In this document: positions 4,930 to 28,240 of the stretch, piece by piece
How the letters are laid out: every line of letters begins with the position of its first letter
Position numbering within the stretch: position 1 is the first letter of the stretch
From: Thermacetogenium phaeum DSM 12270
GTDB taxonomy: Bacteria > Bacillota > DSM-12270 > Thermacetogeniales > Thermacetogeniaceae
Length of the DNA stretch: 64,000 nucleotides
Direction of reading: 5' to 3'
Assembly: GCF_000305935.1 (NCBI RefSeq)
Contig: NC_018870.1
Span: 1,969,001 to 2,033,000 of the forward strand
Program-made: the position numbers and the translations under genes
The notes under the pieces: generated by a model
The model's database searches: none
The model's input: only the letters and a program-made list of their open reading frames with translations
Told to the model about the DNA's origin: nothing

Positions 4930-4939
4930 CCCTCTTTTC

Positions 4940-5488: not shown

Positions 5489-5536
5489 AAACACCCCATC
5501 CCTTGCAAGCTGTTCCTTTGATATTTCACTCCGAAG

Positions 5537-6295: not shown

Positions 6296-7293
6296 GCTTT
6301 AACCTCTTTTCCAATCATAGATGCGCCCTTTCCCCCGCCGCGTTTGCCCGCAACTATGCCCATCAGGCTGCAGCACTCTTCGGTGAAAATCACCTGCAGC
6401 CCTTTGTTGCGGGCATGTGTTATGGTTGCCTCATCTGGGTAGGCAATGGCGTTGACACCGCAGTCCACCGCCAGCTTCTCGATTTTCTGTTTGTACCTGC
6501 CGGGCGGCCTGGCGCAACCAAGGGTTAAAGGGATGTCGGGATTCAAGAGGCGGGCTGTGGCAAAGACCCTTGCGGTTTCCTCCACCGGCGGCGGCTCCAC
6601 TCCGGCCATTTCCGTTCCTTTCATCGGGGAGATGATAACGAGCACCACCGCCTGGGGGTCTGCCCGGCTGATCATTTCTAGGGCCTTCATCTCTCCCAGG
6701 AGGCGGCCGTAATGCAACCCGATAACCACATGGGGAGCAATGCTCAACCCCGCTTCCCGGCAGGTCAGCATCGCTTCCAGATAATCACTTGGCTTATGAG
6801 CCAGGTGATACACATCGCGAATCGTGCTTTCCTCACCGATCACATCCAGCAGAACCTGATCGACCCCCACTTCCCGCAGGGCAACTGCCGTTTCCCGCCG
6901 GATCAGCCCGCTGTGCACCAGAACCCGCAACCCCTTCCCTTTGGCGTACCCAATGGCATCGACGAAGGGGAGCAGGGGTACCTCCCCGCGTGAATCCGCC
7001 CCTCCGCTGACCAAGATACCCCGGCAGCCTTTCTCCATCAGGCGGTCCACGACGCGGCACATCTCTTCGGGCGTCGGTGTTGGGATCATGGTTTCCAGCA
7101 GTCTGCCGTTGCAGTGTGCGCAGCGGCAGGCGCACGCCTTACCGGTCACACTGAGGTTGACAAAGGAATTGCGGCGGTTGGCGAAAAACCTGTTCTGGTA
7201 ATGCTTTGCCCCAGGGGCCGAAAAAATGATCTGAGGTGCGTGATCCTTTCTGATCTCCCAGGCCTGCTGCATAAGGTTGCTAAGCCCCGGCAT
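6292..7293 (-). CDS. radical SAM protein, LipS1/LipS2-type lipoyl synthase partner
   Basis: The 333-residue protein has a radical SAM cluster motif in the form CACRCAHC (CX3CX2C) and a following TIM-barrel (ILVSGGADSRGEVPL, VDQVLLDVIGEE, VVIGLHYGR). The start MPGLSNL was chosen because GGGAGGGAG lies just before it; it then overlaps the previous radical SAM gene by 14 bases. Two adjacent radical SAM genes beside lipoate ligase and GcvH-like genes is the signature of the LipS1/LipS2 lipoyl synthase, which inserts two sulfurs into an octanoyl chain and is unrelated in arrangement to LipA. Which of the two subunits this is I cannot say. A BioB/HydE-like enzyme is the alternative. Confidence 0.7.
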   Translation of the reverse strand: MPGLSNLMQQAWEIRKDHAPQIIFSAPGAKHYQNRFFANRRNSFVNLSVTGKACACRCAHCNGRLLETMIPTPTPEEMCRVVDRLMEKGCRGILVSGGADSRGEVPLLPFVDAIGYAKGKGLRVLVHSGLIRRETAVALREVGVDQVLLDVIGEESTIRDVYHLAHKPSDYLEAMLTCREAGLSIAPHVVIGLHYGRLLGEMKALEMISRADPQAVVLVIISPMKGTEMAGVEPPPVEETARVFATARLLNPDIPLTLGCARPPGRYKQKIEKLAVDCGVNAIAYPDEATITHARNKGLQVIFTEECCSLMGIVAGKRGGGKGASMIGKEVKA

Positions 7294-8323
7294 GCGAAAC
7301 TCCCTCCCAGAACTGGGAGCGAATGATTTCGATATCCTCCGGTGTGGGAACAAAGGGATAGTTTCTCATAGGTTCGCCAGCCCTCTCGTTTCCGAAGGGC
7401 CTGTTGCAGGCAAGGAACCCGTCTTCTCCGGGACACCCGGAGGTCATGAACGCCAGGCCGTTATTGACATACGGCTCTATGTCGATACCATAATCGACTA
7501 TCTGTCCTTCCGGAGAAAAGCTGATGGCAGCTTCGGAGAGAATCCCTTCGTTGATCAGGTAACGGGCAAGCTGTACCCGGCGGTATTGCCCGAGGGGGGG
7601 TTGAGGGGAGTCCTCCATCAGGCTGCCGGCTTCTGGGAAAAAGGAGAACAGGTGAGTCAGGGCTCCCATCCGGTATGCTCTCGATATTGTCTTAACCATC
7701 TGTTCTTCCGTTTCACCGAGACCGACGATGAGGTGCACGCCCACTTTATGGGGGCCGAATACCTCTACGGCCTCGGCCACGGTATCCCAGTACCGGCTCC
7801 ACTTATGGGGGCCATTTACGGTGCGCCCGCGGTGCTTTTCGAAAAGCTCTTCGGTAGCAGCATCAATGGCGATATCCACCCGATCCGCCCCGGCATCCCT
7901 GATCATGGCCAGGTCATCCTTACCACGCATGACAGTGGGTGTAAGCAGCCCGCTGATGGGAAGACCCGTAGTTCTGAACCTGTCCGTAACAGTACAGGTA
8001 TCAACCACACTGCGGGGATGGGTAAGCATGGAGACGCACACCCGTTTAAAAGGGTGATTTCTCGTTTTTACCCGCTCAAGGATTTCATCCAGGGCATATG
8101 TCGGCCACTTTACACGGATAAAGGTTTTCCCGGTACTTACCTGCCGGTTGCGGGCAAGGCCGCAGTAGCTGCAAGCACCGCGGCAGCCGTCCTGATAGGT
8201 AAGCAGAATATTGAGGCAGGTGCACTTCGCCCCCCGGAGAAACCGGCCCTGCTCCAGTCCCAGGCAGATCGCTCCTGCCAGGCTGGTTTGTACGTATTCC
8301 GGGCTTTCCTTTATCATCTTCAT
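7280..8323 (-). CDS. radical SAM protein, LipS1/LipS2-type lipoyl synthase partner (BioB-like)
   Basis: The 347-residue protein resembles biotin synthase in layout. It has the cluster motif CRGACSYC (CX3CX2C) at about residues 47-54, then SGLLTPTVM, DRVDIAIDA and VHLIVGLGETEEQM. Additional cysteines (CTCLN before the motif, CPGEDGFLAC near the C-terminus) could bind a second, sacrificial iron-sulfur cluster, as sulfur-inserting radical SAM enzymes do. It lies upstream of and overlaps the other radical SAM gene. No biotin genes are nearby, while three lipoate ligases and two GcvH-like carriers are, so a lipoyl synthase role is favoured. A 290-bp leader with palindromes precedes it. Confidence 0.72.
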   Translation of the reverse strand: MKMIKESPEYVQTSLAGAICLGLEQGRFLRGAKCTCLNILLTYQDGCRGACSYCGLARNRQVSTGKTFIRVKWPTYALDEILERVKTRNHPFKRVCVSMLTHPRSVVDTCTVTDRFRTTGLPISGLLTPTVMRGKDDLAMIRDAGADRVDIAIDAATEELFEKHRGRTVNGPHKWSRYWDTVAEAVEVFGPHKVGVHLIVGLGETEEQMVKTISRAYRMGALTHLFSFFPEAGSLMEDSPQPPLGQYRRVQLARYLINEGILSEAAISFSPEGQIVDYGIDIEPYVNNGLAFMTSGCPGEDGFLACNRPFGNERAGEPMRNYPFVPTPEDIEIIRSQFWEGVSHAGA

Positions 8324-8438
8324 AAGAATTCCCCCCTTTATTTGTAATTACTGCTTATTGGTCTACCGCCTTGAAAATTATGTTCTTGCTGTTCTAAAAC
8401 CCGAGCCAACCGTCTTCTCTGAAGCCGTCCATGGCGCA

Positions 8439-8532
8439 GAGTCGTTCCGACTCCCCCACCCTCAACGACATTTTCAATAACAATCGTTCTGAACGAATGT
8501 TAAAGGGTAGAAGTTACCTTTGGGGAAAGGTC
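8439..8532. promoter_or_regulatory. cluster of palindromes in the leader of the radical SAM genes
   Basis: The 293-bp gap between the second lipoate ligase and the radical SAM pair is the longest gene-free stretch between two genes of the operon apart from the IS256 site. It holds three dyads: ACCTTT-gggg-AAAGGT (8517-8532), a 23-bp near-perfect palindrome AACAATCGTTC-T-GAACGAATGTT (8479-8501, 10 of 11 pairs) and GAGTCG-ttc-CGACTC (8439-8453). The middle one looks like a dimeric repressor site. The regulator is unknown. Confidence 0.45.
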
Positions 8533-8616
8533 ATTTCGGCCAACGTTAACTACTCCCCATCAGAAGAAGATAACAATCCAGCATATTGATCCATGAGCTG
8601 AAGAAGACGATTGTTT

Positions 8617-9723
8617 TCATTCTCTGTTGGTGTCGCAGGAGGCGGCGAGTTTGTCTGCCCTGGAGATAGCCGCATACAGTGCATCATAAAAATCTTCGGG
8701 CATGATACCCGGAATTTTCACTGCACGTTCTGCAAAAAAGGAGCACACATTCTGCCGCAGTTCGGACGGGTCGCTGGAAGAGTTTTTGAGAGACGCCTCA
8801 AGGTCAAGGATGCTCTGCTTCGGGTATGCGAAGAAGTCGCCGGTAATCATCACGCTTTTGATGCGGTGCCTGGTGCGGTCGAGCAGTAGTGACACCCGGA
8901 TCAGACCGCCCGGTGTTTTGTGATCCACCGTGACTAGGCTGCTGTCCTGCAGTTGCGATCTTTGACCGCGGACCCACTCCTCCGACCGAAAATAAGGCAG
9001 CTCCCGATTCAGCATCTCCTTTTCTCGGCCTGTCAAGTCTCCGGCCACCAGCTTAATGCCCAGCACCTCTGAGAAACCCTCCGCCATGGCCTTTTTGATC
9101 ACCGGCAGAGGCGGCAGGCAACCCAGCACCTCCCGCAGGCAGACGACCCTTTCCTTGAAACTCTGCACCTGCTTGTCATCAAGCTTCTTGATCGGTAGTT
9201 TAAGGCACTTGATCATGGTATCCACATCAAAGTCGGTTAAAACGGTGCCGTGAAAGAGGAGGGCATCGCCGATCTCTGTGCCCCCTGTGCCTGATATCTT
9301 CCTTCCGTCTACCTCAATGTCGTTCAGGGGACGGAATCGCGCAGTTACCCCCAGCTTTGCCAGGCCGGCTACGGCACTCTCACACAGCAAGCAGTACATA
9401 TCTTCGAGCTTTTTCGGTATGCCAGGTGTATCCTTGCGAGCAAAGACCTCCCACCCGAGTTGCCCCTCGTCCATATAAATCGCACCTCCACCGGAGATAC
9501 GTCGGTTGATGTCGATCCCGTGGCTGCGGCAGTATTCCTCCTCCACCTCGAGCTCCACCGCCTGGTGGTATCCCACCAGGGCGGCAGGTGGTGAAAACTG
9601 CAGAAAGTGAACAGTGTCCGGCACCAAGTTGCGGCTTCGGGCCGTCAGGATTACTTTCTCCAGCGCCATATTGTGAGCAGCGGACAGCGACCCGGTATCG
9701 AGCAGGCGCCAGACCTCGCTCAC
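8617..9723 (-). CDS. lipoate-protein ligase homologue
   Basis: The 368-residue protein belongs to the biotin/lipoate ligase fold: NRRISGGGAIYMDEGQLG (about 94-111), LNDIEVDGRKISGTGG with the expected lysine, and LLFHGTVLTDFDVD. It continues into a longer C-terminal region than the canonical ligase at 3931. Its start overlaps the stop of the GcvH-like gene by four bases, so carrier and ligase are coupled and may be a dedicated pair. It could attach octanoate or lipoate to that carrier, or be an amidotransferase of the LipM/LipL type. The motif GRKISG favours ligase or octanoyl transfer but cannot decide. Confidence 0.8.
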   Translation of the reverse strand: MSEVWRLLDTGSLSAAHNMALEKVILTARSRNLVPDTVHFLQFSPPAALVGYHQAVELEVEEEYCRSHGIDINRRISGGGAIYMDEGQLGWEVFARKDTPGIPKKLEDMYCLLCESAVAGLAKLGVTARFRPLNDIEVDGRKISGTGGTEIGDALLFHGTVLTDFDVDTMIKCLKLPIKKLDDKQVQSFKERVVCLREVLGCLPPLPVIKKAMAEGFSEVLGIKLVAGDLTGREKEMLNRELPYFRSEEWVRGQRSQLQDSSLVTVDHKTPGGLIRVSLLLDRTRHRIKSVMITGDFFAYPKQSILDLEASLKNSSSDPSELRQNVCSFFAERAVKIPGIMPEDFYDALYAAISRADKLAASCDTNRE

Positions 9724-10148
9724 GGGGTAACCCCTTCTTCCACTTCAAGCCTTTCCTGCTGCCGGATCCACTCCCTGTAGGCCTCCGGGGTCATCAGGCT
9801 CTCAAGCTCCGAAGGATCCTGGAGCCTGACTTTCATAAGCCAGCCGGTGGTATATGGAGCCCTGTTAACTTCCCCCGGGCTGGTAGTGGCCTTGGAGTTG
9901 GTCTCGGTAATTTCACCCGTTACCGGCAGAATCAGCTTGCCCACCCATTTGCCTGATTCGATGGAACCGAAACTTTCTCCCCGCCTGACAATGGTACCCA
10001 CAGGCGGTAGTTCCAGATAAATTACGTCGCCGGTAGTGCTCTGCCCGTAATGGGTCAGCCCGATTACGGCCTCATTACCATTGACTTTTACCCAGTAATT
10101 GTTCTTGTCGTAGAGAAGGTCTTCGGGAACAAGCCACTGTTCACCCAT
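9720..10148 (-). CDS. GcvH-family lipoyl carrier protein (second copy)
   Basis: The 142-residue protein has the GcvH fold pattern (YWVKVNGNEAVIGLTHYGQ, GDVIYLELP, VGTIVRRGESFGSIESGKW, LPVTGEI). The expected lipoylated lysine is K67 in ESGKW; classical glycine cleavage H proteins have ESVKA here. No glycine cleavage P or T genes are nearby. It is flanked on both sides by lipoate ligase homologues, overlapping one by ATGA. It is probably an assembly platform for octanoyl or lipoyl groups, or a mobile electron carrier like the lipoate-binding protein of the sulfur-oxidising Hdr-like system. The latter is inference. Confidence 0.8.
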   Translation of the reverse strand: MGEQWLVPEDLLYDKNNYWVKVNGNEAVIGLTHYGQSTTGDVIYLELPPVGTIVRRGESFGSIESGKWVGKLILPVTGEITETNSKATTSPGEVNRAPYTTGWLMKVRLQDPSELESLMTPEAYREWIRQQERLEVEEGVTP

Positions 10149-10167
10149 ATTGCATCCTCCTAAACAT

Positions 10168-11139
10168 TTAAATATTTACAGGGAACTCTGCCAGCAAATC
10201 CTCACGCCATTCACACCCGATATACGCCTCCCAGAGCCCTTTGTTCAGCTCATTGCGCCCGATAACTTCCAGATCAGCAATCTTGCCGTCCCTGACCACT
10301 GCCAGGAGGCGTTCATCCCCGCCGTAGGGTCGCTCTATCAGATAGACGCCCTCGGCAATCTTGACCTTGCGGTAGGGCAGCTTGCGACCGGGGAGGGACA
10401 GCCAGTCAGAACTGGCAAGGCGGGCACCGATTCTGCTCGCCCTTTCTAGCAATTCGGTGTCGGGCAGGCGGGGGCTCAGTCTGCCAAATTCCCTGGCAAA
10501 CTCCTCGATCAGGGCGGCAGCCAGATCTGCATAGCCGGGCAGATCGTCAAGCCAGTCGGCCAGCACGGTCATGTACTCGCGCATCGCTATTTGTAGGCGC
10601 CGTCTGAAAGTACTACCGGGAACACGCAGCACTCTGCTCATGGTCCTGAAGTCAAAATCGATCAGGATGTTGCCCACGTAGGCCACGCACTGCCCGATGT
10701 CTCCGGCGGCATTGCCCGAGCACTTACGTCCATCCGCCACAATATCCGCCGGTGCTTTCAGTTCGGCCGGCACACCAAAATGCCGGTATAGGCGGATAGC
10801 CGGTTTAAGAAATTTCTTGTAAAAGCGGTCCCGGCGCAGGGGAAGAAGAGGGTTATCCTTATGCAGCACGAGCTGAAAGAAGACCTGGTTGCTGTCTAGG
10901 TAAACCACCCCGCCTCCGGTCTCGCGGCGCAGGAGAGGAATGCCCCGCAGCCGGCAATACTCCTGGTCTATCTCCTGCTGCAGGTCATCGTGGAGGCCCA
11001 GACAGACGTAGGGACTGGTGGGGTAGCAGATGATCAATCCCTCCCGGCCCAGGTAGGCCAGCGCATGGTAAAGGGCCTGGGATTCCCACCAGCTGACTCC
11101 CCCCAGGTTGTAGAGATCCACTGCCCCCCACCTCCCCAA
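10168..11139 (-). CDS. lipoate-protein ligase homologue
   Basis: The 323-residue protein keeps the ligase core: LLRRETGGGVVYLDSNQ (about 95-111; a Thr replaces the usual Ser before the triple glycine), APADIVADGRKCSGNAAG with the expected lysine, and AYVGNILIDFDF. It shares little beyond these motifs with the ligases at 3931 and 8617, so the three are old paralogues and not recent duplicates. It lies 19 bases before the second GcvH-like gene and eight bases after the DUF6506 gene. It may be specific for one of the GcvH-like carriers, since in some bacteria special ligases load only such carriers. Confidence 0.8.
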   Translation of the reverse strand: MGRWGAVDLYNLGGVSWWESQALYHALAYLGREGLIICYPTSPYVCLGLHDDLQQEIDQEYCRLRGIPLLRRETGGGVVYLDSNQVFFQLVLHKDNPLLPLRRDRFYKKFLKPAIRLYRHFGVPAELKAPADIVADGRKCSGNAAGDIGQCVAYVGNILIDFDFRTMSRVLRVPGSTFRRRLQIAMREYMTVLADWLDDLPGYADLAAALIEEFAREFGRLSPRLPDTELLERASRIGARLASSDWLSLPGRKLPYRKVKIAEGVYLIERPYGGDERLLAVVRDGKIADLEVIGRNELNKGLWEAYIGCEWREDLLAEFPVNI

Positions 11140-11147
11140 ATTTCATG

Positions 11148-11453
11148 TTACCGGAAAAGTTCGTCCCCGCTCTTGAAGTCCAGGCCGGGATGGTTGTCGA
11201 AACGAACTACTCCTACTACAGCCTTATTTTTAACCGCTTTCTTCACTGCTGCGGTGCCCTCGATGCCAAAACCTCCGCACAGTTCGATGGCACTCACACC
11301 CTGTGCGACCAGTTCCTCGGCCGCCTTTGCCGCAGTCCGATAGTCCTTGACCCCAACCACGGTCAACTCCACTACAGGAGTCTCCACTACCGCCCGGTGT
11401 TTCCCGGCATCCGCTTCGGGAGCCACGAAAATAAACGCCGCCTTCAATGCCAT
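11148..11453 (-). CDS. DUF6506 family protein
   Basis: The 101-residue protein looks like the DUF6506 family: it has ALKAAFIFVAPEAD, an ELTVVGVKDY segment, then VSAIELCGGFGIEGTA and VGVVRFDNHPG. The function is not known. No signal peptide or membrane segment is visible. It lies between the GlcF-like gene (31 bases away) and a lipoate ligase gene (eight bases away) and is clearly part of the operon. A single cysteine in LCGG is the only obvious reactive residue. Its presence with the lipoyl genes is a hint of a shared role, nothing more. Confidence 0.6.
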   Translation of the reverse strand: MALKAAFIFVAPEADAGKHRAVVETPVVELTVVGVKDYRTAAKAAEELVAQGVSAIELCGGFGIEGTAAVKKAVKNKAVVGVVRFDNHPGLDFKSGDELFR

Positions 11454-11484
11454 TCAACACACCTCCGGTTCTTAATTTCACCAA

Positions 11485-12654
11485 TCAACCTATAGCTTCC
11501 AGAAGTAATTCACTGATATCCATAACCCTTACGGGCAAACCAGCCTTGCGAACGGCAGCACTGAGCATCTGTTCACACTGCTGGCAAGCGGAAACCACGA
11601 TGCTGGCCTTGGTTTCCTTGATCTCCTGTATCCGCAGCTTGGTGATCTCTGCGGCCAGATCGGCATCCACGCTCTGGAGGTTGCCGCCTCCCCCGCAGCA
11701 GAGAGAATCTTCCCTATTGTGATCCAGTTCGACGAATTCAATTCCAGGGATGCTCCGGATAATTTCGCGGGGAGCGTCGTAGACACCGCTGTTACGCCCC
11801 AGGTCACAAGGGTCGTGGTAGGTCACCACCTCATCCATTTCCTGCAGTTCCAGACGACCATCCTTAACAAAACGGGCCAGGTATTCGGTGGTGTGCAGGA
11901 TCTCCAGGTCGTATCCCGCCAGTTCGCTCAGACATTCGTGTTTCCAGACGTGGTAGCAGGAGGCACAGCTTGCCACCAGGGTGTGGATGTCCAGTTCCTT
12001 GATTTTGGATACGTTGTGCTTGATAAACTCCCTGGCGTCATCGGCAAACCCGGTGCTCAACAGGGGAAAACCGCAGCACCATTCCTCCCCGCCCATGGTG
12101 GTAAAGTCAACTCCGGCCTCCATCAGCAACTGAGTGACGGCGAGAGGAATCTGGGCCGCCTGGGGGAAGAAGGAGGATACGCAGCCCACAAAATAGCACA
12201 CCTCCGCGCCCTTCTTGAGTTCCAGGCCTTCGGGTTCCTCATCCAGGTCCTGGGCCCATTCCAGCCGGTCGTCGTTGCTGAAGGTAGAAATGTTCTTGTG
12301 GGCCAGGAGGTTTTCCCGGATGGTGTTATAAGCCTCTGGTCCTTTGCCCAGTCCGGCAATGCGCTTGCGAAGCTCCAACCAGAGGGTTCTCGTATCAATA
12401 GAGGTTGAGCAGGCACGTGCGCAGGCCCCGCACAGGGTGCACTGGGCCACCCGCCGGATAAACTCCTCAGACAGGGCTTTTTCGTTACCCTTGGCAAAGA
12501 TGCCCTTAGCCAGGCTTATCTTCCCCCTGGGACTGGCCGACTCCCAGCCAAGCACCTGGTAGACTGGGCAGGAGCTCCGACAGTAGCCGCAGCGCCCGCA
12601 GATCAGGGCTTCTCTTTCGAGGGTTGTGAAAAGGCTCTTGCCTTCTGATGTCAT
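11485..12654 (-). CDS. GlcF/HdrD-like iron-sulfur oxidoreductase subunit
   Basis: The 389-residue protein has two 4Fe-4S motifs near the N-terminus (CGRCGYCRSSCP and CTLCGACARACS) and two cysteine-rich CCG domains (CYFVGC with EEWCCGFPL and CASCYHVW; then HDPCDLGRNSGVY, SLCCGGGGNL, SACQQCEQM). CCG domains bind special clusters that reduce disulfides in heterodisulfide reductase HdrB/HdrD, and they occur in glycolate and lactate oxidases (GlcF, LutA). It overlaps the flavin subunit gene by four bases, so the two form one complex. In this operon, a disulfide-active subunit next to lipoyl proteins suggests electron exchange with dihydrolipoyl groups. Confidence 0.85.
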   Translation of the reverse strand: MTSEGKSLFTTLEREALICGRCGYCRSSCPVYQVLGWESASPRGKISLAKGIFAKGNEKALSEEFIRRVAQCTLCGACARACSTSIDTRTLWLELRKRIAGLGKGPEAYNTIRENLLAHKNISTFSNDDRLEWAQDLDEEPEGLELKKGAEVCYFVGCVSSFFPQAAQIPLAVTQLLMEAGVDFTTMGGEEWCCGFPLLSTGFADDAREFIKHNVSKIKELDIHTLVASCASCYHVWKHECLSELAGYDLEILHTTEYLARFVKDGRLELQEMDEVVTYHDPCDLGRNSGVYDAPREIIRSIPGIEFVELDHNREDSLCCGGGGNLQSVDADLAAEITKLRIQEIKETKASIVVSACQQCEQMLSAAVRKAGLPVRVMDISELLLEAIG

Positions 12655-14129
12655 CGGCGCACACTCCCTCTCATAAATCTCCTAATCCCGGCCATGACGT
12701 TCATCCCTAAGCTGAAATTAAAGGGGTTCAGCATCGGATGCCATTTATACAGCTTCCCCGGATTCATGATTCCCTTGGGATCCAGCTTCTTTTTCCTGGT
12801 CCGCAACTGCTCGAGCTCCGAGGCCTTGAAGATGCGCCCAAGATAGGGGGTGTTCCACAGCCCTACACCGTAAGGGTAACCACCGTGCCGGTATCCCACG
12901 TCCTGGATCTTTTTCACCAAGCTGAGATCCATGACATACTCGAAGACCCTTGTTTCATCCGCAAAGAACATGGTCATGATGATAATCCTCTCGGGGGTAG
13001 CCACATGCCCGTAGGAGCACATTTCCCGCCCGTACCGCCCGGACAGCCTCTTGATGTCGGAGAGGTAGCTTTCAAGCCTGGAGACCGGCAGGAAGACCTC
13101 TCCTCCCACTTCGGAGGGCCCGCTTCTTTTAAGTTTGAGGGACTTGTATCTCTCTTCCCATTCCATTTCGGCGACATCTCCGGGCAGGAAAGAAACCGCA
13201 GTGTTATCTGCAACAAGACTGGCAATCATTTCCTCTGCCTGGTTGAGTTCGTCCTCTGGGCCTTCATAATCGATTGCTAGCAGGCACCCCGAATCTACGT
13301 TACCCGGTGAAATTCCCTGCCTGAACATGGCTTTCACGCACGCTTCATCGGTAAAATGCAGGTTGTAGGGAGTAATTTTCGCATCCTTGACAGCAGTCAA
13401 TACTCCGGCCATTTCAGACAGTTCGCGGGAGTACAGCAGAAAGTGCTTCATTGGTGTTCGTTTGCGAATTTCGATTTTAAGCTTCGTAATTATCCCTAGA
13501 GTTCCCTCGGAAGCCGCAAACCAGGCCAGTGGCGGATCTGTATCAGCGGTCACCTGCCGGATCTCTCCACCCGGTAAAACTACCTCCGCCCATTTAACCT
13601 GGGACAGCAGTGAGCCGTACTTCAGGCTGCCAATACCGTACCCCATCATGCAGAGCCAGCCGGCAATGCTCGATGCGGGGGCGCTGCTGGGTACGGATTT
13701 CGGAGCATAGCCCTTGGCGTTCAGGTATCGTTCCAGTTCGCTCCAGGTGGTCCCCGCTTTCACCGTGACCGTCATCCCATCCTCGTCCAGTTCCAAAACC
13801 CCTTTGAGCAGGTTCAGGTCGATCACGATGCCTCCCTTGGCGGGCACGGAGTCGAAGTAAACGGTGGAGGCGCCCGACCGGGGGGTTACCGGGATGCCCG
13901 CGGCCCCGGCCAGGCACAGGATCTCCGCAACCTCTTCCGCCCCGGTGGGACGCACCACCAGATCCGGCACGGTTTTAAACAGCGGGTCCACCAGTAGCGC
14001 CGGCACCGGGGCCAGATCACGGCTGTAAAGGACGCACTCAAATCGAGCATCGGTGGCCCGCTCGCCGCATAGCTCTTTTATCTGCCGCAGCGCTTCACTC
14101 TTTTTCACGCCTATCTCCATCCTCTCCAA
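12651..14129 (-). CDS. FAD-linked oxidase, GlcD-like flavin subunit
   Basis: The 492-residue protein has an FAD-binding type 4 domain (about 50-225, with VVRPTGAEEVAEIL, VTPRSGAS, FAASEGTLGIIT) and the C-terminal FAD-linked oxidase domain ending in LDPKGIMNPGKL. Relatives are glycolate oxidase GlcD, D-lactate dehydrogenases and alkyl-DHAP synthase. There is no EtfAB gene next to it, so it is not the electron-confurcating lactate dehydrogenase arrangement. It is co-translated with the GlcF/HdrD-like subunit and lies 35 bases after a GcvH-like gene. The donor could be lactate or glycolate, or the dihydrolipoyl arm of the carrier; the sequence alone cannot tell. Confidence 0.82.
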   Translation of the reverse strand: MERMEIGVKKSEALRQIKELCGERATDARFECVLYSRDLAPVPALLVDPLFKTVPDLVVRPTGAEEVAEILCLAGAAGIPVTPRSGASTVYFDSVPAKGGIVIDLNLLKGVLELDEDGMTVTVKAGTTWSELERYLNAKGYAPKSVPSSAPASSIAGWLCMMGYGIGSLKYGSLLSQVKWAEVVLPGGEIRQVTADTDPPLAWFAASEGTLGIITKLKIEIRKRTPMKHFLLYSRELSEMAGVLTAVKDAKITPYNLHFTDEACVKAMFRQGISPGNVDSGCLLAIDYEGPEDELNQAEEMIASLVADNTAVSFLPGDVAEMEWEERYKSLKLKRSGPSEVGGEVFLPVSRLESYLSDIKRLSGRYGREMCSYGHVATPERIIIMTMFFADETRVFEYVMDLSLVKKIQDVGYRHGGYPYGVGLWNTPYLGRIFKASELEQLRTRKKKLDPKGIMNPGKLYKWHPMLNPFNFSLGMNVMAGIRRFMRGSVRR

Positions 14130-14164
14130 TCCGCGGGCAGACCTGCGGTCATTTTCCTATACTG

Positions 14165-14587
14165 CTATTTGGCATGTTTCTCTATCTCTTCCTTAAGCCA
14201 TGGCTCCACCTGATCGCCGTGCAGCAACCGGTTTAACCCTTCGGACAGGTTATCCGGCTCCATTACGGCAACCCACCCCTGCCCGTAGGGATCGGCGTTC
14301 AAAGGCTTGGGATTGGCAGCCAGATCCTTGTTGACTTCGATTATCTTCCCGCTCATCGGAACCACAACCTTCCCCGCCCATTTGCCAGACTGAAGTGTGA
14401 TGAGGGTCTTTCCTTCTTCCATCACTTTTCCTGTCCGGGGTAAACGAATAAAAGTGATTTCGCCGGCAAGTTGCTGCATGAAATCGGTGATCCCGATACG
14501 GATCCGACTCCCTTCAACTTTAACCCAGGCGTGGTCGGTCGTATAATAAAGTTCATCCGGCATTTCATACTTATCGATCCTGGCCAT
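14165..14587 (-). CDS. GcvH-family lipoyl carrier protein (first copy)
   Basis: The 140-residue protein follows the H-protein pattern: YYTTDHAWVKVEGSRIRIGIT, LAGEITFIRLP, a lipoyl turn QSGKW with K69 as the expected modified residue, VVPMSGKI, and DPYGQGWVAVMEP. As in the second copy, SGKW replaces the ESVKA of classical glycine cleavage H proteins. It lies between the AhpD-like gene (31 bases upstream) and the flavin oxidase gene (35 bases downstream). No GcvP or GcvT is present, so a glycine cleavage role is unlikely. A mobile lipoyl carrier between AcoC and the flavin/iron-sulfur pair is my preferred inference. Confidence 0.82.
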   Translation of the reverse strand: MARIDKYEMPDELYYTTDHAWVKVEGSRIRIGITDFMQQLAGEITFIRLPRTGKVMEEGKTLITLQSGKWAGKVVVPMSGKIIEVNKDLAANPKPLNADPYGQGWVAVMEPDNLSEGLNRLLHGDQVEPWLKEEIEKHAK

Positions 14588-15015: not shown

Positions 15016-16173
15016 CTAAATAAATATGCGGTATGGTTTTTCGATCAGATCGATCAAGACCTTTAAAAACTCGGCAGCAGGGGCGCCGTCAATCACTCGG
15101 TGATCAAAAGCCAGGGAGAGTCCCAGCATAGGCCGGATGGTGATCTCCCCGTTCACCACAACCGGCCGCTCTACCGTACGGCCGACACCCAGTATAGCCG
15201 ACTCCGGCTGGTTGATGATCGGGGTGAACCAGTCCACCGAGCCGTAGGCTCCCAGGTTGGTAACGGTGAAGGTGCCGCCGGTCATCTCGTCCGGTTCTAG
15301 CTTGTTGCGGCGTGCGCGTTTGGCCAGATCCCTGATTTCCTTATTAACCTGGTAGATGTCCTTTTGGTCGGCGTTTCTAACAACCGGGACAATCAGCCCA
15401 TCCGGCAGGGCCACCGCCACCCCGATGTTGATATCCTGAAGCACCTTGATCTCTTCCCCGTCTAGGGTGGCATTCACCGCCGGCTTGAGTTCTAAAGCCT
15501 TTGCAACAGCCTTAACCAAAAAGGCAGTAATAGAAACCTTGTCTTTTTCCTTAACCCCCTCATTGATCTCTCGGCGGAGGGCGATGATGCCTGAAAGGTC
15601 CACACTGGTATGGTGGGTAACCTTGGGCGCTACCGCCCAGCTATGGGCCATGTTATCGCCAATAGCCCGTCTCATGCCTTCGTAAGGAATAACCTCAAGG
15701 GTCGGCCGGTCATCCGCCGCAGGAATCCCCTCGGCGATGGCCCTCTCCACATCTTCTCTGGTGATGCGCCCCTCAGGACCCGTTCCTTTAATACGGGTGT
15801 AATCGATACCGTTTTCTTCTGCCAGCTTCCGGGCAGCCGGGGAGATCTTTATCCTCTCACCTGCTGCCGGTGCGGCCGAAGCAGCAGCTGCCGTCCCGCC
15901 AGGCGCCTCTGCAAGCAGGGCGGATATGTCCTCGCCTTCGGAGCCAATCACCCCAAGCAAAGCCCCAATCGGAAGCTTCGCACCTTTTGAAGCGACAATT
16001 TTAAGCAGTATGCCTTCTTCCGGCGCTTCCACTGTGTTGGTGATCTTTTCGGTCATGATCTCCACGACCGGCTCCCCTTTTTTAACGCGATCCCCTTCGT
16101 TTTTCAGCCATTTGGCGACAGTGCCCGTCTTCATGGACAGTCCTAATTTAGGCATGGTTATCTGTGCTGCCAT
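15016..16173 (-). CDS. acoC: acetoin dehydrogenase E2, dihydrolipoyl acetyltransferase
   Basis: The 385-residue protein has one lipoyl domain (about 3-78, lipoylated lysine K43 in TEKITN), an Ala/Pro-rich linker, a peripheral subunit-binding domain (about 109-146, ISPAARKLAEENGID with GPEGRITREDV) and the catalytic domain ending in LAFDHRVIDGAPAAEFL with the conserved His and Asp. It transfers the acetyl group from lipoate to CoA. The binding domain normally holds E3 (dihydrolipoamide dehydrogenase), which is not encoded in this window. It follows acoX by 15 bases with a strong AGGAGG-type ribosome site. Confidence 0.9.
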   Translation of the reverse strand: MAAQITMPKLGLSMKTGTVAKWLKNEGDRVKKGEPVVEIMTEKITNTVEAPEEGILLKIVASKGAKLPIGALLGVIGSEGEDISALLAEAPGGTAAAASAAPAAGERIKISPAARKLAEENGIDYTRIKGTGPEGRITREDVERAIAEGIPAADDRPTLEVIPYEGMRRAIGDNMAHSWAVAPKVTHHTSVDLSGIIALRREINEGVKEKDKVSITAFLVKAVAKALELKPAVNATLDGEEIKVLQDINIGVAVALPDGLIVPVVRNADQKDIYQVNKEIRDLAKRARRNKLEPDEMTGGTFTVTNLGAYGSVDWFTPIINQPESAILGVGRTVERPVVVNGEITIRPMLGLSLAFDHRVIDGAPAAEFLKVLIDLIEKPYRIFI

Positions 16174-16188
16174 CTTGTTGTCCTCCTT

Positions 16189-17199
16189 TTAAGCCTTGTA
16201 ACCTGTTCTCACACGGGAATAGCCTCTGGTCACCGCTTCGCGCAGGGCTATTTTTATATCCACGACCCGTGGACCGTCAAAGCTCAGCCTGAAGGATGCC
16301 GTGTCACCCTCTTTTACTTCCACTTCCCTTTCCCCGTCGAGGGCTATTACACAGGGAACTTCGGCAACAGACACTTCTTCATCTATTTCAACAGTCCGAT
16401 GATTCCTCACCTTCACGGATTGTATGAGCCCCGGCGCAATTGGCGCCAGCAAGGTGATACCGCCTTCTCCAAATTCAATGGCGAGCCCCCTCTCCTCCTG
16501 AATCCCGACGGGTTCCAGGTTTCCTGCGATGGAAGAGATACCGATATTGTGGGGCTCCCCCCGCGTTACCAGTACCTGACGTATTCTCTCCGCATCCCAC
16601 ACAGCCCGGGAACCGATGAAGCTGTCCCGCAGGACGACGGCATCGATGAGAGCAATGTCCACATGAACACCATTTTTGTAAATATGAATTTTTTTCGTAT
16701 GATGTACTGCCAGAGACCCGCAATACCATCCGCCGGCCACAATCCCGGCCGCCAGACCGGCTATTGTTCCTTCCACCATTTCCGGAAAGACATTGTTGGT
16801 TCCGGTAGAAATGGGAACCAGCGGCACCTCACCGCATCCCTTGGCCACCATGCGGTTGGTGCCATCACCCCCCAGGACGATCATACAGCCAACCCCAAGC
16901 CTGTTCATTTCTACCGCAGCTTTATAGGAATCGATCTGGGTCCCCGTCAACTCCATATCTACCGGGTTTACCTCAAGGGAAAGACGGTGCTGGCTGGAGA
17001 GACCATCAAGAGCTTTTGGGACAATTCCATAATAATCCGGCATATAAACCACTTGCCTGACTCCGGTGGCAGCCAGCCCGAGCAGGGCGCGGCGCACTAT
17101 ATTGACCTTTTCCTGGTTGTCAAAGACTGTGCCGTAGGCCACCAGCCGCCGGATGTCCTTGCCGGAAGCCGGGTTGGCAATGATCCCTACTACAGCCAT
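16189..17199 (-). CDS. acoX: acetoin catabolism protein AcoX, ATP-NAD kinase family
   Basis: The 336-residue protein belongs to the ATP-NAD kinase-like family, with the nucleotide motif VLGGDGTNRMV (about residue 112) and the substrate-side STGTNNVFP. An N-terminal segment GIIANPASGKDIRRLVAYG is typical of AcoX. Its role in acetoin use is unsettled, although it often accompanies acoABC. It lies between acoB and acoC, the classical order in several acetoin clusters. A leading GTP/ATP-dependent kinase role is inferred from family only. Confidence 0.85.
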   Translation of the reverse strand: MAVVGIIANPASGKDIRRLVAYGTVFDNQEKVNIVRRALLGLAATGVRQVVYMPDYYGIVPKALDGLSSQHRLSLEVNPVDMELTGTQIDSYKAAVEMNRLGVGCMIVLGGDGTNRMVAKGCGEVPLVPISTGTNNVFPEMVEGTIAGLAAGIVAGGWYCGSLAVHHTKKIHIYKNGVHVDIALIDAVVLRDSFIGSRAVWDAERIRQVLVTRGEPHNIGISSIAGNLEPVGIQEERGLAIEFGEGGITLLAPIAPGLIQSVKVRNHRTVEIDEEVSVAEVPCVIALDGEREVEVKEGDTASFRLSFDGPRVVDIKIALREAVTRGYSRVRTGYKA

Positions 17200-17271
17200 T
17201 CCTCTTCCCCTCTCTTAAAATAACTTTCAATCGCGGTGAGCAGGTATCACCCTGCCCACCGCTTATCAACC

Positions 17272-18243
17272 TTAGAACAGTTCCTTTACGGCCTTGATGA
17301 TCTTCTCTTCGTTTGGCAGGTAAGCGCTCTCCAGCACCGGGCTGAAAGGAATCGGAGTATCCGGGGCGGTTACCCGTTTGATTGGGGCATCGAGGAGATC
17401 GAATCCCTCCTCTGCAACTAAAGCGGCAATTTCCCCGCCGAACCCGCTTGTCCTGACCGCTTCGTGAACGATGACCAGTTTCCCCGTCTTGCCAACTGAT
17501 TTCAAAATTGCTTCTTTATCAAGCGGCACAAGGGTGCGAGGATCGAGAACCTCGGCGTTGATGCCGTCTTTCGCAAGCTCCTCGGCAGCAGCTAGGGCCT
17601 TTTGCAGCATCCAGGACCAGGCCACGATGGTCACATCGGAACCCTCCCGCTTGATATCGGCCTTGCCGAGCGGAACGACATATTCCCCTTCCGGGACCTC
17701 TCCTGCCACATTGAGGAGTTGCTTGTGCTCGATATAGATAACAGGGTTGTCGTCCCTGATTGCCGCAATCATCAGCCCCTTCGCATCCGCCGGTTCTCCG
17801 GGCATAACCACCTTCAGGCCGGGGATGTGGGTAAACCACGCCTCCAGGGACTGGGAATGCTGGGCAGCCGCCGACATTCCGGCTCCGCACGGTGTCCTCA
17901 CTACCATGGGGAGTCTTGCCTTGCCGCCGAACATGTACCTCATCTTGGCGGCCTGGTTGAGAAGCTCGTCCATGCAGACCCCCATGAAGTCCACGAACAT
18001 GACTTCGGCAATCGGCCTCAGGCCTGCAGCGGCCGCACCTACAGCGCTGCCGACGATGGCGGTTTCGCTGATCGGTGTATCGATTACCCGTTCCGGTCCG
18101 AATTCCTGGTATAATCCGGCGGTTACACCAAAGCAGCCCCCGAAAATACCTACATCTTCGCCATAAAGATAGACGTTGGGGTCCCTTTTCATTTCAACCC
18201 GCATACCGTCCCTGATAGCCTCGGCATAAGTCATCTGTGCCAT
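17272..18243 (-). CDS. acoB: acetoin dehydrogenase E1 component, beta subunit
   Basis: The 323-residue protein matches the transketolase-like pyrimidine-binding beta subunit of 2-oxoacid dehydrogenases. It has LYGEDVGIFGG near the N-terminus, DTPISETAIVGSAVGAA, RTPCGAG and the C-terminal domain with LVIVHEAVRTSGFGGEIAA. Together with AcoA it binds thiamine diphosphate and cleaves acetoin to acetaldehyde and an acetyl group passed to lipoate on AcoC. It starts 22 bases after acoA. Length fits the family (about 325-340). A pyruvate or branched-chain substrate is the alternative; the neighbouring acoX and acoR favour acetoin. Confidence 0.88.
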   Translation of the reverse strand: MAQMTYAEAIRDGMRVEMKRDPNVYLYGEDVGIFGGCFGVTAGLYQEFGPERVIDTPISETAIVGSAVGAAAAGLRPIAEVMFVDFMGVCMDELLNQAAKMRYMFGGKARLPMVVRTPCGAGMSAAAQHSQSLEAWFTHIPGLKVVMPGEPADAKGLMIAAIRDDNPVIYIEHKQLLNVAGEVPEGEYVVPLGKADIKREGSDVTIVAWSWMLQKALAAAEELAKDGINAEVLDPRTLVPLDKEAILKSVGKTGKLVIVHEAVRTSGFGGEIAALVAEEGFDLLDAPIKRVTAPDTPIPFSPVLESAYLPNEEKIIKAVKELF

Positions 18244-18265
18244 GTTCTTTCACCCTTTCTATTAG

Positions 18266-19228
18266 TTACTCTGCATAGACGTCCGTAAGGACATCGTCGG
18301 GGTTCGGAAGAGGACTGCTTTCGGCAAACTTCACTGCAGCTTCGACCTCTGCCTGGACATCGGCCTTGATTGCATCGAGATCGGCCTGGGTGGCATATTT
18401 AAGCTCAATCAACTTCGTTTCAAATCTGGGAATTGGGTCCTTTTTGAGCCATGCTTCCTGTTCTTCCGGTTTCTTGTAAACCTGCGGATCGCCTTCGAAG
18501 TGACCGCGGTGTCTCCAGGTCTTGCACTCGATCAGGCTGGGGCCGTCCCCTTTGCGGGCCCGGGCAACAGCCTCGGCTGCAGCCTCGTAAACGGCTATGA
18601 CGTCATTTCCGTCCACGGCCACACCTGGGATTCCGTAGGCAGCGGCCCGGTCGGCGATATCAGTAACGTTCATGTGGTTCTTCTGGTAGTTAGAAATACC
18701 GTACATGTTATTTTCTGCCACGAAGATTACTGGCAGTTTCCAGATGGAAGCCATGTTTAAAGACTCATGGAAGGTGCCGCGGTTGGATGCTCCGTCGCCA
18801 AAGAAGCAGACCACCACATTGTTGGTCTTTTTGTACTTGCAGGCAAAGCCTGCGCCGGTGGCAATGGGCTGCCCGGCTCCAACGATACCATTGGCCCCGA
18901 GAATACCCAGATCAACATCTGCTATGTGCATGGAGCCGCCCTTCCCCTTGCAGTAACCTGTGGTCCTGCCGAACAACTCGGCCATCATCAGGTCGATCTT
19001 GCCGCCTTTGGCGATCAGGTGGCCATGGCCGCGGTGGGTGCTGGTGATGTAATCTTCGTCCGTCAGGTTCGCACAGACACCGGTTGCCACCGCTTCCTCG
19101 CCGACATAGAGGTGCACGAAGCCGGGAAGCTTGCCAGCAGCAAACAATTCGGCGGCCTTCATCTCGAAGGTCCTGATCCTCACCATGGTTTTATACATTT
19201 CCAGCAGTTTTTCTTTTGTGAGTTCCAT
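18266..19228 (-). CDS. acoA: acetoin dehydrogenase E1 component, alpha subunit
   Basis: The 320-residue protein carries the thiamine diphosphate motif GDGASNRGTFHESLNMA closing on AENNMYGIS, and the conserved STHRGHGHLIAKG and GRTTGYCKGKGGSMHI of E1 alpha subunits. The length is that of single-alpha E1 proteins of the acetoin/pyruvate class. It lies 20 bases after the butanediol dehydrogenase gene and just before acoB, with a good AGGAGG ribosome site. Product acetaldehyde would need an aldehyde-oxidising enzyme; the operon's own such gene is only a remnant (3317-3715). Confidence 0.88.
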   Translation of the reverse strand: MELTKEKLLEMYKTMVRIRTFEMKAAELFAAGKLPGFVHLYVGEEAVATGVCANLTDEDYITSTHRGHGHLIAKGGKIDLMMAELFGRTTGYCKGKGGSMHIADVDLGILGANGIVGAGQPIATGAGFACKYKKTNNVVVCFFGDGASNRGTFHESLNMASIWKLPVIFVAENNMYGISNYQKNHMNVTDIADRAAAYGIPGVAVDGNDVIAVYEAAAEAVARARKGDGPSLIECKTWRHRGHFEGDPQVYKKPEEQEAWLKKDPIPRFETKLIELKYATQADLDAIKADVQAEVEAAVKFAESSPLPNPDDVLTDVYAE

Positions 19229-19248
19229 CCAGGTTACCTCCTTAAAAT

Positions 19249-20307
19249 TTATTTGGGAGATACGATAATCTTGATATTCTCGTCCTTGTTGTTGATTAAT
19301 TCCTCGAACCCCTTTTCGATAATTTCATCCAGCTTGATCCTGCCGGTGATCATCATGTCTGCATTGAGGCGGCCGTCATCAATCATCTTGATCACAGGGG
19401 CAAACTCCCCGTTGTATGCCAGTGAACCCTTGATCTCTTTTTCAGGGAAAACGATTCCGTTGAAGTTTATGCTGCTCTCGCGCTCGAACACTCCAGCCTG
19501 AACAGAAATACCGCGCGGACGGAGGACTGCAAGCGAAAGCGGAGTGGTCTTATCACTACCGACACACTCGATGCTCACATCGGCACCGATGCCGTCCGTA
19601 AGCTTAAAGACTTCCGCCACAACGTCACACTGAGTGGGATCAAGAACAGCAGTAGCACCGAGTTTCTTGGCATATTCCTTGCGGGCTTTGGCCACCTCAA
19701 TCACAATTACCTGGGCCGCTCCGGCAACCCTGGCGCACTGCAGGGCGGACAGTCCGATAGTACCGGCTCCGATAACTACTACGTTATTACCGGCAATAAC
19801 CGGGGCCCGGCGAACGGCATGCATACCAACGGAGATGGGCTCTACCAGTGCTGCCTGTTCAAAGGTCATGGTGTCGGGAATTTTGTAAATGGTATATGCG
19901 GGAACATTGACATAACGTGCAAAAGCACCGTCGGTGTGCAGACCGGTGAATGCCAGCTTCTCACAGCACGGATAATCATATCTCTTGCAAGAGTAGCACT
20001 CCCAGCATACCTGGCAGGCATCGGGAGCTACCCTGTCCCCAACCTTGACATTCTTAACCCCTTCGCCGACTTCCACAACTGTACCGGAGAACTCATGGCC
20101 CAAGATTACGGGAGCAGTACCACCTGTTAAGGGATGAGGCTTGTCAACGGGAATAAAGATGGGACCAGCAATGTATTCGTGTAGATCTGATCCACAAATG
20201 CCACACCATTCCACCTCAACCTTGACCCAACCGGGCTTTGGTGCCGGCGGTTCCGGAACATCCACCACTCTGACATCTTTTTTTCCGTACCATACAGCAG
20301 CTTTCAT
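19249..20307 (-). CDS. bdhA: zinc-dependent 2,3-butanediol/acetoin dehydrogenase
   Basis: The 352-residue protein is a medium-chain zinc dehydrogenase: catalytic zinc site CGICGSDLHEY and GHEFSG, a structural-zinc cysteine group (CQVCWECYSCKRYDYPCC), and a Rossmann NAD site VIGAGTIGLSALQ. It closely follows the (R,R)-2,3-butanediol dehydrogenase pattern; threonine or sorbitol dehydrogenase are alternatives. Oxidation of 2,3-butanediol to acetoin would feed AcoAB directly, and the gene is the first of the aco block. An IS256 element starts 56 bases upstream, separating it from the sigma-54 promoter. Confidence 0.8.
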   Translation of the reverse strand: MKAAVWYGKKDVRVVDVPEPPAPKPGWVKVEVEWCGICGSDLHEYIAGPIFIPVDKPHPLTGGTAPVILGHEFSGTVVEVGEGVKNVKVGDRVAPDACQVCWECYSCKRYDYPCCEKLAFTGLHTDGAFARYVNVPAYTIYKIPDTMTFEQAALVEPISVGMHAVRRAPVIAGNNVVVIGAGTIGLSALQCARVAGAAQVIVIEVAKARKEYAKKLGATAVLDPTQCDVVAEVFKLTDGIGADVSIECVGSDKTTPLSLAVLRPRGISVQAGVFERESSINFNGIVFPEKEIKGSLAYNGEFAPVIKMIDDGRLNADMMITGRIKLDEIIEKGFEELINNKDENIKIIVSPK

Positions 20308-20363
20308 GAAAAATAACCCCCTTTTTAAATCTTTTTAAAATCTGTGTGAATTGTTTAACATGA

Positions 20364-21778
20364 GTTACGTTACGGTCAAGTCCAAATTTGTGTGTAAATT
20401 CCCTCTGGCAGATAAGATCACCCCGTTTTAAGCTACATTTACCTGGGTATCGGCATTATTCACCTCCTTCTGCTGTTTTTCTGTGTTAGCCTTCCACTCC
20501 CAATACTCTGCCATATCAAAGTAGCGCTTTCCTGTGGTCCACACCTCGTCGATCTCTACAAGCACTGCTCCGATCAGTCTCACAGCCGACTCCTCGTTAG
20601 GGAAGATTCGGATCACCCGCTCCCGCCGGCGGATCTCCTGGTTGAGCCGCTCGACTCCATTGGTGGTGCGCAGCCGCTTCCGGTAGCGCCCTGGTAGTGC
20701 CATCACCGCCATTGCGTCCTCGAAACCAGCTTCAAGTCGCTCTACCGCCTTTGGCGCCCGGGCGCCAAAGGCCTCTATCGTTTCGTTCAGCAACCGCCTG
20801 GCCGTCTCCATATCCGGCGCGTCGAAGATCAACCGCAGTCGCCCGTGCAGGTCGCCCTGGAGGCTCTTAGGACAGGCGTCCAGGATGTTCCGGATAAAGT
20901 GGGTCTGGCACCGCTGCCATGTCGCTCCTTGGAAGTGGGTTTCTATCGCATTGATCAAGCCCTTGTGATCATCCGAAACAACCAAGTCCACTCCCTTGAG
21001 ACCGCGCTCCTTGAGCCGGCCGAAGAACTCCGACCAAGCAGCCTCTGATTCGCTATCCCCGAGCATAAGCCCTAAAATCTCCCGGTATCCCTCCCGGTTG
21101 ATCCCTGTAGCGAGAAGTACGCTTGAAAGCCGTACCCGGCCGCCTTTACGCACCCGGATGACAATGGCATCTACCAGGAGAAATGGGTATTCCTGGCTGC
21201 TCAAATCTCGCTCGTTCCACTCCTTTACGATGTCGTCCAGTCTTTTGCACAGGCTGGATACGGTGGATTTGGAGAACTCCGTGCCGCATAGTTCATCAAC
21301 AACCGCCCTTACCTTCCTGGTGGATACGCCGTTCACGACCATCTCGACCATGGCCAGCAAGAGCGCCTGCTCGCTCCGCTGGTACCGCTCGAAAAGCTCC
21401 GTGGAGAAGTGCCCGCTCCGGAGACGGGGAACCATAAGCGTAAGTTCTCCTACGCGAGACTTGAGCAGCTTATCCCGATACCCGTTGCGGTACCCCTGCC
21501 GCTCTTCGGTACGTTCGTATGGCTTGGCCCTGAGTTGTTCGGTAGCCTGAGCATCGAGTATCTGATTCACGATGTTCTCCACCAACCGAGCCAATCCATC
21601 ATCCCGAATAAATAATCCTTGCAAGAGATCACAGTCTACGGTAACCTGGTAGTGAGCCATCTTTTCTCCCTCCTGATGATTAAGATTAAGCCACTTCTTA
21701 TCTACCAGAGGGAGGGGTGGCTCTCCTGCTTCAAGCCATCAATTTTACACCATCATAATGGACACTACTTTACGTTAC
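20364..21778 (-). mobile_element. IS256-family insertion sequence
   Basis: The element is about 1415 bp. Its ends are imperfect inverted repeats: GTTACGTTACGGTCAAGTCC at 20364 and, in reverse complement, GTAACGTAAAGTAGTGTCC from 21778, with further matches inward (TGTAAATT against TGTAAAATT). No clear target duplication was visible. It sits inside the aco operon between the Lin0512 gene and bdhA, with its transposase in the same direction as the operon. Confidence 0.85.
20428..21660 (-). CDS. IS256-family transposase
   Basis: The 410-residue protein is a full-length Mutator/IS256 transposase. Recognisable parts are RQGYRNGYRDKLLKSRVGELTL near the N-terminus, LLVDAIVIRVR with the first catalytic Asp, VVSDDHKGL with the second, the RCQTHFIRNIL block and TTNGVERLNQEIRRRERVIRIFP carrying the catalytic Glu. 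It appears intact, so the element may still move. It lies within inverted repeats at 20364 and 21778. Confidence 0.93.
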   Translation of the reverse strand: MAHYQVTVDCDLLQGLFIRDDGLARLVENIVNQILDAQATEQLRAKPYERTEERQGYRNGYRDKLLKSRVGELTLMVPRLRSGHFSTELFERYQRSEQALLLAMVEMVVNGVSTRKVRAVVDELCGTEFSKSTVSSLCKRLDDIVKEWNERDLSSQEYPFLLVDAIVIRVRKGGRVRLSSVLLATGINREGYREILGLMLGDSESEAAWSEFFGRLKERGLKGVDLVVSDDHKGLINAIETHFQGATWQRCQTHFIRNILDACPKSLQGDLHGRLRLIFDAPDMETARRLLNETIEAFGARAPKAVERLEAGFEDAMAVMALPGRYRKRLRTTNGVERLNQEIRRRERVIRIFPNEESAVRLIGAVLVEIDEVWTTGKRYFDMAEYWEWKANTEKQQKEVNNADTQVNVA

Positions 21779-22229: not shown

Positions 22230-22297
22230 GGAATCCCTCACTTCCTTCCGTCCTGTGTTCCTTGAAACAATCAACGAATATTCTGTTATCCTAATAA

Positions 22298-22313
22298 AGC
22301 AAGTACCATGCCA
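22298..22313 (-). promoter_or_regulatory. sigma-54 promoter of the aco/lipoate operon
   Basis: On the minus strand TGGCAT-GGTAC-TTGCT fits the sigma-54 consensus TGGCAC-N5-TTGCW at all but one position, with correct -24/-12 spacing. It lies 69 bases before the GTG of the Lin0512 gene. A GAFTGA-containing activator, AcoR, is encoded at 744-2762. This is the only strong sigma-54 site I found in the window. Confidence 0.75.
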
Positions 22314-22339
22314 CAAAGCCAAATCGAACAATGAAAAAA

Positions 22340-22376
22340 GCCGTCAAGCCTAGCGGCTAGCGACTTTTAACGGTAG
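22340..22376 (-). terminator. imperfect hairpin with T-run upstream of the sigma-54 promoter
   Basis: On the minus strand GCTAGCC-GCT-AGGCTTGACGGC can fold imperfectly and is followed by TTTTTT. It lies just upstream of the sigma-54 promoter and may insulate it from read-through. The stem is poor. Confidence 0.35.
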
Positions 22377-22413
22377 AGTAGCCCAACCAAAAATGGGACA
22401 GAAATATAACATT

Positions 22414-22466
22414 TGTGTCACATCAGTGATCGAATCCGATATCTCTATGACACACAAGGCTGACAC
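22414..22466. promoter_or_regulatory. candidate upstream activator sites for AcoR
   Basis: TGTGTCA (22414-22420) and TGACACA (22448-22454) form an inverted pair, and a further TGACAC lies at 22461-22466. They sit 100-150 bases upstream of the sigma-54 -24 element, the usual place for enhancer sites. TGACAC also occurs just upstream of acoR. Binding is inferred. Confidence 0.4.
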
Positions 22467-27929: not shown

Positions 27930-28100
27930 CCTCCTTTTTGCCTCCCACGCGGTTTCACCCACCGGATACCCCTTTGTCACGGGGATTGCTCTCCGCTTTT
28001 CAAGGCATCCTCACGGTGGTGGGCCACCGAGGGGCACCCGCCGAAAAACTCGATAAACCCCTTCCTCGTCAACCGGCCGAAGGCCGGTCCAGGCGCTTGA
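27930..28100 (-). ncRNA. glmS ribozyme riboswitch
   Basis: On the minus strand the core reads AAGCGCCTGGACC, then GTTGACGAGGAAGGGGTTTA, TCGAGTTTTCGGCGGGTGCC and CCTCGGTGG, closely matching the catalytic core of the Bacillus glmS ribozyme. The predicted self-cleavage site is between 28097 and 28096. Glucosamine-6-phosphate is the cofactor, giving feedback control of glmS. It lies between glmM and glmS, so cleavage separates the two messages. Confidence 0.92.
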
Positions 28101-28240
28101 GATTCTGTTCTGTCACCTGCGCGGGAAGCCAGTTTTTCATTTTAATAATTGCTTCCGGCTGGAACCGGCAGCCATCCGGGACTTTAAACTGCGTGCTGAA
28201 CCAATTCTTTTCTCCTCACAAACTGCCGCTCCGCACCGCA

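Follow-up and report, generated by a model that had tools for sequence, protein, structure and literature searches.

A probable AcoR-activated sigma-54 promoter and enhancer of an acetoin operon in Thermacetogenium phaeum, split by a recent IS256-family insertion

The region in front of the acetoin (2,3-butanediol) gene cluster of Thermacetogenium phaeum DSM 12270 very probably holds both the sigma-54 promoter and the enhancer of an AcoR-activated operon, which a recent IS256-family insertion has since split. The stretch of DNA that we analyzed, called the window here, is 64,000 nt long and corresponds to positions 1,969,001-2,033,000 of NC_018870.1 (GCF_000305935.1). Coordinates are those of the window unless they are given as genome positions. 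Genome-wide searches covered the T. phaeum genome, which is one contig of 2.94 Mb. For comparison we retrieved 39 loci via AcoX and 23 via Lin0512, and conservation of the promoter was scored in 45 upstream regions, the window counted among them.

A conserved sigma-54 promoter

The -24/-12 element TGGCATGGTACTTGCT is found on the minus strand at 22313-22298 (genome 1991298-1991313), 69 bp before the GTG start codon (22229) of the first gene, which belongs to the Lin0512 family (PF09585; 21864-22229, minus strand). We used a strict sigma-54 pattern, TGGCAY-N5-TTGCW, with the GG and GC dinucleotides at -24 and -12 and a fixed 10-nt spacing, all of which are present in TGGCATGGTACTTGCT. A first-pass annotation of this DNA had noted TGGCAT-N5-TTGCT 69 bases before the first gene, and it is indeed there, as the sole strict match in the window (1 versus 0.26 expected) and the top-scoring sigma-54 match on either strand. 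Across the genome there are 27 strict sites versus 2 for a reversed control pattern, and there is one sigma-54 gene (PF04552 at genome 703787, E 2e-62). No Rfam family matched at the promoter.

Comparing the regions upstream of aco operons in relatives, a check that the first-pass annotation had proposed, shows that the promoter is kept. A sigma-54 promoter was identified in 30 of the 45 upstream regions of Lin0512-aco loci, at a distance of 45-250 bp from the first gene, and the same promoter type precedes Lin0512 and acoAB across many Bacillota. When five divergent genomes (the window, L023, L024, L033, and L066) are aligned, TGGCA[TC]GGTACTTGC, spacer included, is the main invariant block (TGGCAYGGTACTTGC). 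The sequence also fits the Clostridiales sigma-54 consensus TTGGCATNNNNNTTGCT (Nie et al. 2019, PMC6615313), and it has the same GGTACTTGC -24/-12 core as the aco promoter of B. thuringiensis, TTGGCACGGTACTTGCA, whose activity in reporter tests depended on AcoR and sigma-54 (PMC4428206). Judging from its sequence and conservation, we regard the element at 22313-22298 as a real promoter of the sigma-54 type, of a well-known regulatory kind, with a transcript start predicted near 22286. In a Syntrophomonadaceae relative (L024), we also noted a second perfect sigma-54-like site, TGGCACGAAACTTGCT, at positions 433-448 of that locus, about 520 bp upstream of the conserved promoter.

A predicted upstream activating site for AcoR

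The first-pass annotation had reported a paired TGTGTCA/TGACACA plus a TGACAC 100-150 bases upstream of the promoter, and we confirmed these, with TGACAC words at 22415, 22448, and 22461, which is 101-150 bp upstream of the -24 element. Its proposal of enhancer control by TGACAC sites holds as far as the upstream enhancer and the spacing are concerned, but the unit is better described as an 18-bp element, TGTGAC-N6-GTTACA, than as half-sites. The predicted AcoR upstream activating site (UAS) is TGTGACACAAATGTTATA at 22405-22422 on the minus strand, which agrees with 11 of the 12 specified positions. We derived the consensus from L024 (TGTGACAACATTGGTACA), L033 (TGTGACAACTGCATTACA), L031 (TGTGACGGTTATGTTACA), and L032 (TGTTGCAAAAGTGTTACA), leaving out the window and its nearest relative, L023, whose version is TGTGACACACCTGTAACA; in all five relatives the element sits 100-190 bp upstream of the promoter. 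Few independent lineages underlie the motif, L031 and L059 being nearly duplicates of each other, and the form of the motif was chosen by eye before testing.

With at most one mismatch allowed, the motif has two matches in 2.94 Mb, one of them at 22405-22422. This count is no higher than chance (2 versus 4 for a control pattern), so the evidence is the location near the promoter: by our own arithmetic, the probability that one of two random matches falls within 300 bp of the promoter is about 2 in 10,000. De novo searches for words shared among the upstream regions gave weak results (p = 0.015-0.9 across word lengths), so it is on palindromic form and location that the UAS claim rests. On these grounds the 18-bp element is well supported as a putative AcoR site, although the motif is not proven. 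A further block at 22448-22466 (minus strand) is made up of GGTGTCAGC and TGTGTCATAGAGATAT, 9 and 16 nt long, which are identical in L023 despite differing flanks; these would be additional half-sites.

In Clostridiales, UAS are reported 100-250 bp upstream and many of the motifs have the form TGT-N10-12-ACA, so the window UAS fits both in position and in its TGT-N12-ACA form; the AcoR group of Clostridium, which regulates acoABCL, has a distinct motif (PMC6615313). The window UAS also differs in sequence from reported aco/AcoR sites, as far as these are quoted in PMC12648084. More distant relatives do not retain every TGACAC word, and the UAS motif was not found in the L116 upstream region. 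We rejected a single AcoR motif for all Bacillota, given that the repeat found upstream in Sporomusa is a different one, GTGTAG...CTACAC. Other repeats (TGTTCGA..TCGAACA; TGAGAC; ATGAGAATTCTCAT) are found before the same operon in L117, L122, L127, L130-L133, and L135. That the repeats differ among groups suggests that AcoR and its site have changed together.

AcoR as the likely activator

The acoR gene has the same orientation as the rest of the cluster and is located at its distal end (744-2762, minus; the mechanical ORF extends to 2804). Its product carries GAF and PAS domains, an AAA+ domain with the GAFTGA motif, and a Fis-type helix-turn-helix. It matched no NCBIfam equivalog above cut-off, and the name AcoR is given by gene context. 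Homologues align to it only from residue 17 on, so the ATG at 2762 is a likelier start than the mechanically chosen GTG. The TGACAC word that had been noticed near the start of AcoR does occur, at 2799-2804, but it covers the mechanical GTG, is at chance level, lies about 40 bp upstream of the likelier ATG, and counts as no evidence. The end of acoR is overlapped by a short, apparently truncated ORF (361-747) that encodes the beginning of a PocR sensory domain.

The first-pass annotation had relied on AcoR being the only GAFTGA activator in the window. A genome-wide PF00158 search revealed no second one there, but there are about 11 strong sigma-54-type activators in the genome, so this argument alone is weak. 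The link between AcoR and the promoter finds better support in comparison. AcoR homologues are encoded directly upstream of Lin0512/aco in eight loci (L027, L028, L031-L033, L038, L059, and L141). In a phylogenetic tree, the window AcoR pairs with that of a relative, G001 (support 100/96), in which this acoR and the Lin0512-aco genes share a contig, and the pair sits within a broader group with members in Sporomusa, DTU018, and others that are directly upstream of Lin0512-aco. In its recognition helix, the window AcoR is almost identical to the protein of L033 (GVSRNTLYRKMK), a locus whose UAS is close in form to that of the window. Genome-wide, the strict sigma-54 promoter nearest to AcoR is the one described here, and the activator nearest to this promoter is AcoR. 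No close acoR was found in the assembly of the nearest relative (G014), in which the contig ends before the expected place of the gene. Because acoR is directly upstream of Lin0512-acoAB in several relatives, we consider control of this promoter by AcoR to be well supported and the best explanation of the sequence evidence.

If the TGACAC words were there by chance and the sigma-54 core alone were functional, single-word counts in the window should look as they do, at expectation (18 TGACAC versus 18.6 expected, and 4 TGTGTCA versus 4.1). The arrangement of the words is harder to reconcile with chance, since three TGACAC within 46 bp have P = 0.0012 when 18 words are placed at random, L023 retains the 9- and 16-nt blocks together with the 12-nt block TGATGTGACACA although the intervening and flanking sequence has diverged, and the window site matches a motif derived from relatives, all of which makes this reading highly improbable. 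It is also very unlikely that the promoter is activated by another enhancer-binding protein. The number of strong activators in the genome leaves room for one, and a candidate is the paralogue of AcoR at genome 2187921-2189900, which is 57% identical over most of its length. However, the paralogue comes with a divergent sigma-54 promoter of its own, located ahead of an aldehyde dehydrogenase operon. The recognition helix of the paralogue (SRSSLYRKLRKLDI) differs from that of AcoR, and there is no TGTGAC-N6-GTTACA with one mismatch or fewer near the paralogue, whereas it is AcoR homologues that adjoin the equivalent promoter in relatives.

A terminator-like hairpin and the ancestral layout

Between the UAS and the -24 element there is a terminator-like hairpin with a T tract (22337-22367, minus strand), which recurs in homologous regions: 16 of 30 loci have such a hairpin and T tract within 75 bp before the -24 element, versus 1.5 in shuffled sequence. 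In several relatives with acoR directly upstream, a terminator often separates the gene from the promoter, and in such loci the hairpin would terminate acoR. The window keeps the UAS, hairpin, and promoter in the same order as its relatives, although its acoR is 20 kb off at the other end. Retention of the hairpin with acoR so distant suggests that acoR once lay upstream of the promoter in T. phaeum.

An IS256-family element interrupts the cluster

The genes for a 2,3-butanediol dehydrogenase-like protein, acoA, acoB, acoX, and acoC (E2) occupy 15016-20307 on the minus strand and were assigned by Pfam and NCBIfam matches and by conserved order. The order Lin0512 - (butanediol dehydrogenase) - acoA - acoB - acoX - acoC is widely retained among the comparative loci, and the genes are uninterrupted in L023, L024, and L033. 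In the window, an intact IS256-family insertion sequence (20374-21769, minus strand) is interposed between the Lin0512 gene, which ends at 21864, and the butanediol dehydrogenase gene, which starts at 20307. It has a DDE Mutator-type transposase (20428-21660; PF00872 E 2e-129, NF033543 above cut-off), terminal inverted repeats, and a 9-bp target duplication, TTACGTTAC, at 20365-20373 and 21770-21778. Transposase family, inverted ends, 8-9 bp duplications, and an outward -35-like hexamer at one end are all common to this element and the IS256 family. The genome contains five essentially identical copies, all of them flanked by target duplications of 8-9 bp. In L023, the Lin0512 gene is 92% identical and in the same location, and the same two genes adjoin, 160 bp apart, with no element between them, from which the insertion in T. 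phaeum can be judged recent.

The first-pass annotation had overlooked this element and treated the region as a single 19-kb operon. With an insertion between the promoter-proximal gene and all of the aco genes, a single operon cannot be taken for granted in the present genome. It is possible, though we think it doubtful, that the insertion has uncoupled the aco genes, which would then depend on a hybrid promoter formed at the IS end or on some other promoter, or would be silent. A complete element with its target duplication, absent from the nearest relative, separates genes 1 and 2, and at the IS end an outward -35-like TTGACC, with AACAAT 18 nt on, faces the butanediol dehydrogenase gene and might form a hybrid promoter (20350-20379, minus strand), of a sort that is documented for IS256 (PMC9330008). 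On the other hand, promoter-like matches in this region are at chance level (3 versus 2), the element reads in the operon direction, no terminator-like site above chance was found within it (2 versus 2.4 expected), and all of the aco genes downstream are intact open frames. The more specific idea that the insertion has rewired the operon, such that the ancestral AcoR/sigma-54 switch has kept control of nothing but the Lin0512 gene and the element, and the butanediol and acetoin genes use the IS-end hybrid promoter, strikes us as unlikely. We also looked for a separate sigma-54 promoter for the butanediol dehydrogenase gene and rejected it: there is no other strict match in the window, and the gap at 20307-20450 contains none of the 12 top-scoring relaxed matches.

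Accessory genes and other features of the window

Compared with the SigL- and AcoR-dependent aco systems of B. subtilis and B. thuringiensis, the T. phaeum cluster is alike in its GAF-AAA+ activator and acetoin dehydrogenase genes, and it differs in the extra first gene (Lin0512), the lipoate-making genes that the cluster contains, the distal position of acoR, and the IS256 insertion. The accessory genes lie within 3931-14587 on the minus strand and also include those for a metallo-hydrolase and an isochorismatase-like protein. LipS1/LipS2-like radical SAM lipoyl synthase genes and three lipoate-ligase-like genes are found at 6292-8323, 3931-4929, and 8617-11139, where LipS1 scored 229.8 bits against a cut-off of 230 and LipS2 fell under its cut-off. 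Given these genes in an aco cluster, the acetoin dehydrogenase complex may bring its own lipoylation machinery. Two GcvH-like lipoyl carriers, a GlcD-like FAD oxidase, and a CCG iron-sulfur protein are encoded at 11485-14587, and this set is kept near acoC in L023, L024, L027-L029, L033, L041, L042, and L141. Among the cluster genes scanned there was no dihydrolipoamide dehydrogenase (E3) gene; an E3-like gene is located elsewhere, at genome 1739735. The GcvH-like, GlcD-like, and CCG proteins are possibly an alternative route for dihydrolipoamide reoxidation.

A partial aldehyde ferredoxin oxidoreductase is encoded at 3317-3715; it retains only the end of domains 2 and 3 and is probably a gene remnant. 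Elsewhere in the window we noted a glmS ribozyme upstream of a glucosamine-6-phosphate synthase-like gene (27954-28108) and a match to group II intron D1-D4 (54476-54561).

Proposed mechanism and its implications

In the mechanism that we favor, AcoR most likely binds the 18-bp element at 22405-22422, and perhaps also the neighboring half-sites at 22448-22466, and senses an inducer that is probably acetoin. Once induced, its AAA+ domain would open the sigma-54 RNA polymerase at 22313-22298, and transcription would start near 22286 into the Lin0512-family gene. Originally, transcription would have run on into butanediol dehydrogenase, acoA, acoB, acoX, and acoC. To be expressed at present, the aco genes would need either read-through of the IS element, which reads the same way, or a promoter located at its end or past it.

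The 18-bp element provides a candidate AcoR binding motif for a Bacillota lineage for which we found none in the literature searched. The retention of the UAS, terminator, and promoter suggests that a fixed layout of acoR, UAS, terminator, and promoter may survive the relocation of acoR itself. If the operon has indeed been rewired by the IS element, this would be a case in nature of a catabolic operon escaping its enhancer. An operon that looks like a textbook example can mislead anyone who reads only its promoter, and a single mobile element is enough to bring this about.
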